A DNA stretch of 38,241 nucleotides from contig VXNK01000128.1 in assembly GCA_009840595.1 (NCBI GenBank), positions 1 to 38,241 on the forward strand, written 5' to 3'. Every line of letters starts with the position of its first letter. The stretch's first letter is position 1. The DNA comes from Rhodospirillaceae bacterium. GTDB taxonomy: Bacteria > Pseudomonadota > Alphaproteobacteria > Bin65. Under the pieces are notes generated by a model. That model did no database searches. It had not been told where the DNA came from and saw only the letters and a list, made by a program, of their open reading frames with translations. Made by a program: the position numbers and the translations under genes. This document shows, in pieces, positions 20,751 through 38,241 of this stretch.

Positions 20751-20794
20751 CGCCGACAACACGCCGACAACACGCCGACAACACGCCAACAACA
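20751..20794 (+). repeat. four tandem 11-bp repeats upstream of the second TetR-controlled promoter
   Basis: Unit CGCCGACAACA: three perfect copies (20751-20783) and a fourth with one change (20784-20794). The array ends three bases before the -35 element at 20798. An 11-bp period is close to one DNA helical turn, so a protein bound to each copy would line up on one face. Confidence 0.9.
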
Positions 20795-20797
20795 CGG

Positions 20798-37515: not shown

Positions 37516-37758
37516 CGCAGCGCCCGCCCTGCCCGCTTCGCTCCGGACGCCGGAGTGCTTCCGGCAATTCGACAGGATGCGCAGGCGCGCCCCGGACCGC
37601 GGGAAGGTGCGCGCCTCGTGCCTTGATTCGGTGAAAAAGAACATTAAATGAACAAATCCATTCAATCGACGGCGGTGGGAAAGGCGCCGGGGTCGCCTCT
37701 CTCGCGCGGCCGGCGCCCGGCGATTCCGGCGCGGCGAAGCAAGGCGAAGAACCACCGG

Positions 37759-37784
37759 CATGACAAATCATGACATTTCATGAC
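37759..37784 (+). repeat. 26-bp direct repeat, left copy
   Basis: The sequence is itself a 10-bp-period repeat: CATGACAAAT, CATGACATTT, CATGAC. An identical 26-bp copy lies at 38038-38063. Confidence 0.9.
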
Positions 37785-37833
37785 GCATCCCGGGATCCTC
37801 ATTCCGGGACCCTCCTTCCGACCGGGCGCAAAC

Positions 37834-37975
37834 CCCACGCCGTCATTCCGACCGGAGCCCCGGATTAAATCCGGGGCGTAGTGGAGGAATCCCGGCGCTG
37901 GCCTCCGGGTTCCCGTTGTCGGGATCGAGTCGAGATTCCTCCACTCGCTTCGCTCGGTCGGAATGACGGCGTGGG
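37834..37975. repeat. intergenic inverted-repeat element
   Basis: Perfect 21-bp outer arms at 37834-37854 and 37955-37975 enclose a second perfect 11-bp pair (GTGGAGGAATC at 37881-37891, GATTCCTCCAC at 37934-37944). A self-complementary hairpin CCCCGGAT-TAA-ATCCGGGG lies at 37858-37876. The RNA or single strand would fold into a long stem. This resembles the dispersed palindromic elements common in alphaproteobacterial genomes. Confidence 0.85.
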
Positions 37976-38037
37976 ATTTGCGGTATCGGTGTCCGGTTCG
38001 GAACGGCGGCGCGAAAGGAGAGGCCATCGCAGCGGAA

Positions 38038-38063
38038 CATGACAAATCATGACATTTCATGAC
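38038..38063 (+). repeat. 26-bp direct repeat, right copy
   Basis: Identical to 37759-37784. The two copies bracket the inverted-repeat element with 253 bases between them. Confidence 0.9.
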
Positions 38064-38128
38064 ATCCCGACATCTGTCCAAATCCCCTCGATTGCCGCCC
38101 CGGACGGAGCGAAGCGGAGATCCGGTTT

Positions 38129-38148
38129 CCCCGGACCCCGATCCGGGG
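38129..38148. repeat. GC-rich hairpin
   Basis: CCCCGGA (38129-38135), loop CCCCGA, TCCGGGG (38142-38148). No T run follows, so a rho-independent terminator is not supported. It probably belongs to a second dispersed repeat. Confidence 0.6.
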
Positions 38149-38241
38149 GACCAGGGGCCACAGGCGAGGCCGTGCCGGGCGGCCCTGGACCCCGATGGGG
38201 TGGACGCCTCCTGCCGACGGCATCGTGATGTGCCAGGTTGG

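Follow-up and report, generated by a model that had tools for sequence, protein, structure and literature searches.

The 26-bp direct repeats near the end of the window (the whole stretch of 38,241 bp analysed here) are members of a dispersed family of arrays, spaced at exactly 10 bp, in related uncultured Alphaproteobacteria, and these arrays accompany an orphan small-terminase-like gene (Terminase_2). The relevant unit is just the 26-bp array, made up of three CATGAC hexamers 10 bp apart, and so is smaller than the inverted-repeat element of the original prediction. It is probable, in our judgement, that the repeats are helically phased recognition arrays for the small-terminase-like protein, which is encoded elsewhere in the genome. 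The DNA itself shows the phasing, the copy number and the linkage to the gene, as well as the joint occurrence of arrays and gene across the genus, a divergent counterpart in another genus and LexA-type boxes. In our best reading, the arrays would serve domesticated, SOS-linked small terminases as recognition sites spread over the chromosome, where binding, SOS control, domestication and purpose are what we infer.

The layout of the locus is given in Table 1. As predicted, there are two identical 26-bp copies with CATGAC at a 10-bp period, and between them an inverted repeat with a long stem. The outer arms of this hairpin (hairpin A) are 28 nt long and 96% complementary with a perfect 21-bp run, and the inner arms are 15 nt (93%). 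The 253 bp between the arrays fold far better than shuffled sequence (z = -9.35, 0 of 200 shuffles as good, DNA parameters). Two features are additional to the prediction: the LexA-type box, and the fact that the two arrays have the 26 bp in common and flanks that are unlike. The contig ends at 38241, just past the start of a B-like hairpin. At 20751-20796 the window also has 4.2 tandem copies of an 11-bp unit.

Table 1. Features of the array locus in the window
Feature	Positions	Strand	Basis
Promoter-like TTGATT near the LexA-type box	37623-37628		reading by eye
LexA-type box GAACATTAAATGAACA in promoter-like sequence	37639-37654	+	pattern match; aligned with 24 other own copies
Array 1, three CATGAC hexamers, 10-bp period, CATGACAAATCATGACATTTCATGAC	37759-37784	+	sequence and genome search
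Hairpin A, GTCATTCCGACCG family, dispersed inverted repeat between the arrays	37827-37982		folding, genome search, orthologous site
Outer arms of hairpin A	37827-37854 / 37955-37982		sequence; perfect 21-bp run by eye
Inner arms of hairpin A	37880-37894 / 37931-37945		
Array 2, same 26 bp as array 1	38038-38063	+	sequence and genome search
B-like hairpin repeat, start only, CCCCGGACGGAGCG...	38096-38205		comparison with inter-array B-like segments; boundaries approximate

The hexamers are strictly phased. Over the loci fetched from the own genome, C[AC]TGAC pairs occur 105, 53 and 9 times at distances of 10, 20 and 30 bp and 22 times in total at 18 other distances up to 60 bp, and the reversed motif, used as a control, gives no pairs. 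A spacing of one DNA turn is the trace expected from a protein that reads one face of the helix. There are 45 matches to the 26-mer at up to three mismatches in the own genome (G000, a 4.1-Mb assembly of 168 contigs) and none to the reversed pattern. At up to two mismatches, 30-48 matches are found in each of six of the seven genus genomes, so that five of the six other members carry arrays. A genome search at this threshold gave none in the remaining member, G006, and none in 34 genomes outside the genus. All these genomes are draft assemblies, mostly metagenome bins, and genes were called from open reading frames and GC bias.

A scan of one genome per species gave at least 106 stretches with an array, 104 of them under the titles Rhodospirillaceae bacterium or Alphaproteobacteria bacterium. 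One array-bearing bin is named after Spongia and the remaining records are presumably sponge metagenomes. The matches in Dyadobacter and Carbobacillus (loci L106 and L091) were judged to be due to chance and were dropped, leaving 104 of the 106 stretches. The L091 contig, from Candidatus Carbobacillus (an unrelated Firmicute), has CATGAC units in tandem with a 10-bp period. A viral origin of the arrays was also rejected, the single match in viral_contigs lying in an unrelated AT-rich context; the 10-bp array is absent from three viral relatives of the terminase-like protein.

The arrays track the terminase-like gene. A protein search that also counted fragments gave 24 matches in the six genus genomes with arrays (2-6 gene copies per genome), no match in the array-less G006 and weaker matches in seven other genomes. 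Eighteen genus copies found in this way have their stop codon within the locus; the contig of another ended before its stop. In 11 of the 18 an array lies no more than 60 bp from this codon (in ten it overlaps the codon), and in 14 one lies within 800 bp; the other four have none. In a control, 84 of 4000 windows reach the score, these windows being drawn from loci many of which had been picked for their arrays. We also used a motif-blind test, which searches the 650 bp around the terminase-like stop for a 5-mer that occurs three times at a constant lag. At lag 10 such triple 5-mers occur at 13 of 30 terminase-like stops and in 1 of 143 control windows (Fisher p = 1.2e-10). Other lags gave one case at lag 11 and one at lag 12 at the terminase-like stops, and about six at lag 12 and two at lag 13 in the 143 controls. 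By genus, the lag-10 arrays are found at 8 of 18 stops in the window's genus and at 5 of 6 in a second genus (G008 and G010). Contrary to the rule, G009 has six terminase-like genes and a phased array at none of their stops, and no dispersed arrays were seen in its genus. On G009 contig C89 (L173/L195) there is a 10-bp-phased ATGTTGC repeat inside the terminase-like coding sequence.

Two simple roles for the arrays were rejected. Most arrays are not at a start codon, so they are not gene starts or translational couplers; the ATG or TGA of the array serves some open reading frames of relatives, in differing frames. Nor are they terminators of convergent genes, because the nearest downstream gene is found on either strand: it is on the same strand for 16 of 26 own clusters, on the opposite strand for 8 and lacking for 2, and the corresponding counts for the clusters of other species are 55, 35 and 14 of 104. 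The arrays are therefore without fixed orientation.

The two terminase-like proteins scanned match Terminase_2 (PF03592) with 44.4 and 48.9 bits against a cut-off of 26.1, and the product also matches PHROG 51, terminase small subunit. The structures of the SF6 small-terminase DNA-binding domain match by sequence (4zc3, E = 5.8e-4). A structure model of one protein is confident only in its N-terminal part (pLDDT 80-87 over residues 11-60, against a mean of 55.5 for the whole model). Its top three Foldseek matches are all SF6 small terminase, with weak E-values (0.068-0.12; TM 0.85 on 4zc3 at E = 0.068), and the modelled protein has an SF6-like helix-turn-helix fold. The one NCBIfam match (13.3 bits against a cut-off of 400) is noise. 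All 13 genus copies caught by the pattern, which matched 19 of the 28 loci given, have SARQ(T/S)G as their putative recognition helix, and this helix differs among three paralogues in G008.

The terminase-like genes stand alone. Two families of the phage packaging module, the large terminase PF03237 (Terminase_6N) and the HK97 capsid PF05065, were searched in G000 and neither gave a match, so that packaging would need a helper phage. For these families there are weak or partial matches in G003, G004 and G001 and strong capsid matches in G007 and G010. No island was recognised around the terminase-like genes examined.

The layout is also found in the second genus, of the same family, though with an array of another sequence. 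In G008 and G010 a phased repeat, AAAGCCAA plus 2 bp, lies beside terminase-like genes. The prediction that it would also be dispersed held: after its discovery at the gene side, a genome search gave 81 matches in G008 and 30 in G010 (overlapping register matches included) and 0 in seven other genomes. At five loci (L175, L182, L251, L252 and L253) we count, by eye, 9 or 10 AAAGCCAA units, grouped in blocks that are 32-33 bp (about three turns) from one another; the 9 or 10 units recall the subunit number of small-terminase rings. In another G010 paralogue, AAAGTAGG units lie at the stop codon and directly after it. This third array type has four matches on two G010 contigs and 0 in four other genomes, and its confinement to two contigs indicates that wide dispersal is not general. 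Another 10-bp-phased repeat, of TTGACGAATG type, follows one G008 terminase-like gene (L174/L198, G008:C179) and recurs at one gene-less locus (L254, G008:C148).

There is a LexA-type box, GAACA-N6-GAAC, on the same strand within 600 bp of 17 of 24 own clusters, and in 16 it is upstream of the array; 17 is also the both-strand total over the 94,685 bases examined, all of them selected for arrays. Genome-wide there are 28 copies of GAACA-N6-GAACA (reversed control, 2), of which 15 are, by eye, upstream of an array, and some others adjoin a TetR-like module with no array. The box overlaps promoter-like sequence. The longest open reading frame that starts between box and array has 108 codons (16 own loci). 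By our count, GAAC-N7-GAAC lies within 330 bp of nine of the 17 genus terminase-like genes whose upstream sequence is long enough to tell (that of two more is too short), and recA carries it in all four genomes with a recA match. It is the reverse complement of the Caulobacter LexA motif as given in the excerpted text of PMC12700426, and the alphaproteobacterial GTTC-N7-GTTC of a LexA regulon is found upstream. A strict box is near only 29 of the 104 clusters in other species, and in the second genus a box is upstream at 4 of 9 gene-less array loci. These boxes are consistent with a putative SOS control of the array and terminase loci. Near 13 of 24 own clusters (L009-L035; L238-L244) there is also a palindrome that resembles a TetR operator, around CCGGTCTGT and with an A-rich lead that is conserved; it occurs downstream of LexA-type boxes without arrays as well.

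Direct repeats of 10 bp are used by regulators such as response regulators. The arrays might be operators of an ordinary host regulator, with the terminase-like genes just some of its targets. Their position downstream of promoter-like LexA-type boxes fits this, as does their persistence at orthologous sites: for 13 of 29 own clusters, by our own count, a flank matches over 450 bp or more next to an array of another species (a looser script rule gave 16). This is a lower bound because the loci compared, 53 from four other species, are a partial set. However, the array sequence changes between genera along with the terminase-like genes while still lying at their 3' end, and the arrays overlap the end of the gene, not its promoter. 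We consider an ordinary host regulator unlikely.

The arrays could instead be selfish repeats without host function, spread by the terminase-like protein or by some unknown enzyme in the manner of REP/RAYT. There are dozens of intergenic copies, two to six terminase-like genes per genome, mosaics with other repeats and changes in copy number between relatives, as this would have it. Against it, the flanks of the array copies differ (mean 0.40-0.43 bits per position in a 46-array profile, in which the invariance of TGAC is imposed by the search pattern and the linkers and flanks are informative), so that no copied unit with clear ends is seen. The persistence at orthologous sites is long, and no transposase or recombinase domain was found in the two terminase-like proteins scanned. 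We think selfish spread of this kind decidedly improbable.

The hairpin is a separate, common dispersed repeat, apart from the arrays. Its half-site CCGTCATTCCGACCG has 148 matches at up to one mismatch in the own genome (control, 0), with or without arrays and with varied flanks. Stem and 26-mer are thus both dispersed, in the own genome and in relatives, and neither is the single-copy sequence on which the original prediction would have foundered. The 16 inter-array segments from own loci contain hairpin A in 7 cases, a B-like hairpin in 5 and neither in 4. The orthologous site, downstream of a gene present in all seven genus genomes, was examined over 1,500 bp. In G004 the order is box-array, with no stem; in G002, box-hairpin-array with a degenerate first array unit; in G001, box-hairpin-array-second hairpin-array; and in the window, box-array-hairpin-array-start of second hairpin. 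Within the 1,500 bp, G003 has other sequence and no array, G005 has box-like sequence and no array, and G006 has neither box nor array. The comparison shows an array in four of the seven genomes and hairpins that come and go. In G003, the upstream gene is found again in pieces at C32:120037 and C32:123080 (L224), resembling an insertion with partial duplication.

The prediction had taken repeats and stem together as one non-autonomous element, and at this site that did not hold: arrays and hairpins vary independently. A transposon or MITE, as one unit with defined ends that is present or absent as a whole, was not found at this one site in seven genomes, which rules out a single mobile hairpin element as the unit there. 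The doubt expressed about a usual target duplication was well placed, since the same 26-mer lies at unrelated loci. For repeats and stem as a non-autonomous mobile element or a structured RNA gene there is the strong folding and the hairpin A in 7 of 16 inter-array segments, but with arrays lacking hairpins, hairpins lacking arrays, a single unit contradicted at the orthologous site and a sole Rfam match of 25.1 bits against a gathering score of 90, we regard it as very unlikely.

The terminase-like system was compared with four known ones, as they appear in excerpts of the sources cited. SPP1/SF6 small terminases and pac likewise combine a helix-turn-helix protein with direct repeats in or next to its gene, the SPP1 pac consisting of three sets of direct repeats that span promoters and the gene start (PMC4737164). 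Here, in contrast, a strictly 10-bp phased array lies at the gene's 3' end and has copies at dozens of chromosomal loci, and the own genome has no Terminase_6N or HK97 capsid match. SaPI small terminases are also carried on the chromosome, with related sites across the host genome, and act at SaPI pseudo-pac sites in island-mediated generalized transduction (PMC6687093); in the present case no island was recognised, and the sites are conserved arrays by LexA-type boxes rather than loose pac look-alikes. REP/BIME sequences with RAYT (TnpA-REP) share the pattern of few protein genes, many cognate intergenic sites and mosaics (PMC2817692, PMC8266576). That system has a palindromic REP and a tyrosine (Y1) transposase, whereas here there are phased direct repeats and a terminase-like helix-turn-helix protein. 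Finally, PICI Rpp is a chromosomal protein that changes which DNA a phage packages, but it binds the phage TerS, while here the protein itself is TerS-like (PMC6739421).

The mechanism that we propose starts from an oligomer of the terminase-like protein, with its Terminase_2 helix-turn-helix and helical core, that would offer one helix-turn-helix to each turn of the DNA. Just as the small terminases of phages are believed to bind pac sites within or close to the gene that encodes them, the oligomer may dock on CATGAC hexamers 10 bp apart. The full unit would be a LexA-type promoter, the terminase-like gene and an array at its stop codon. Gene-less loci with a LexA-type box followed by an array, that of the window included, would be reduced relatives of this unit or captured sites, kept intergenic; such loci probably descend from gene-bearing ones.

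The role of the protein can be read in three ways. It may be an SOS-linked DNA-binding protein that regulates or marks the array loci, it may be what remains of a selfish family, or, by analogy with SaPI small terminases and their pseudo-pac sites, it may redirect infecting phages to host DNA. A bolder form of the last, that SOS-inducible small terminases and matched arrays divert the large terminase and capsids of an incoming phage to host DNA, strikes us as a long shot. If true, the chromosome would encode a distributed packaging network by which the phage is blocked and host genes are exported on phage strike or DNA damage. When isolated, the domains of SF6 small terminase have little preference in vitro for the sequence of pac repeats, according to the excerpted text of PMC4737164, and this is a caution for all three readings alike.

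We recognised no description of orphan small terminases with dispersed arrays in the open-licence PMC literature, as judged from search listings. Small terminases start phage DNA packaging. Here several of them stand alone in chromosomes with matching arrays at dozens of sites, and in a second genus with another sequence. This opens a natural series in which to test how small terminases choose DNA, and whether components of the packaging machinery have become host regulators, selfish repeats or gene-export devices.
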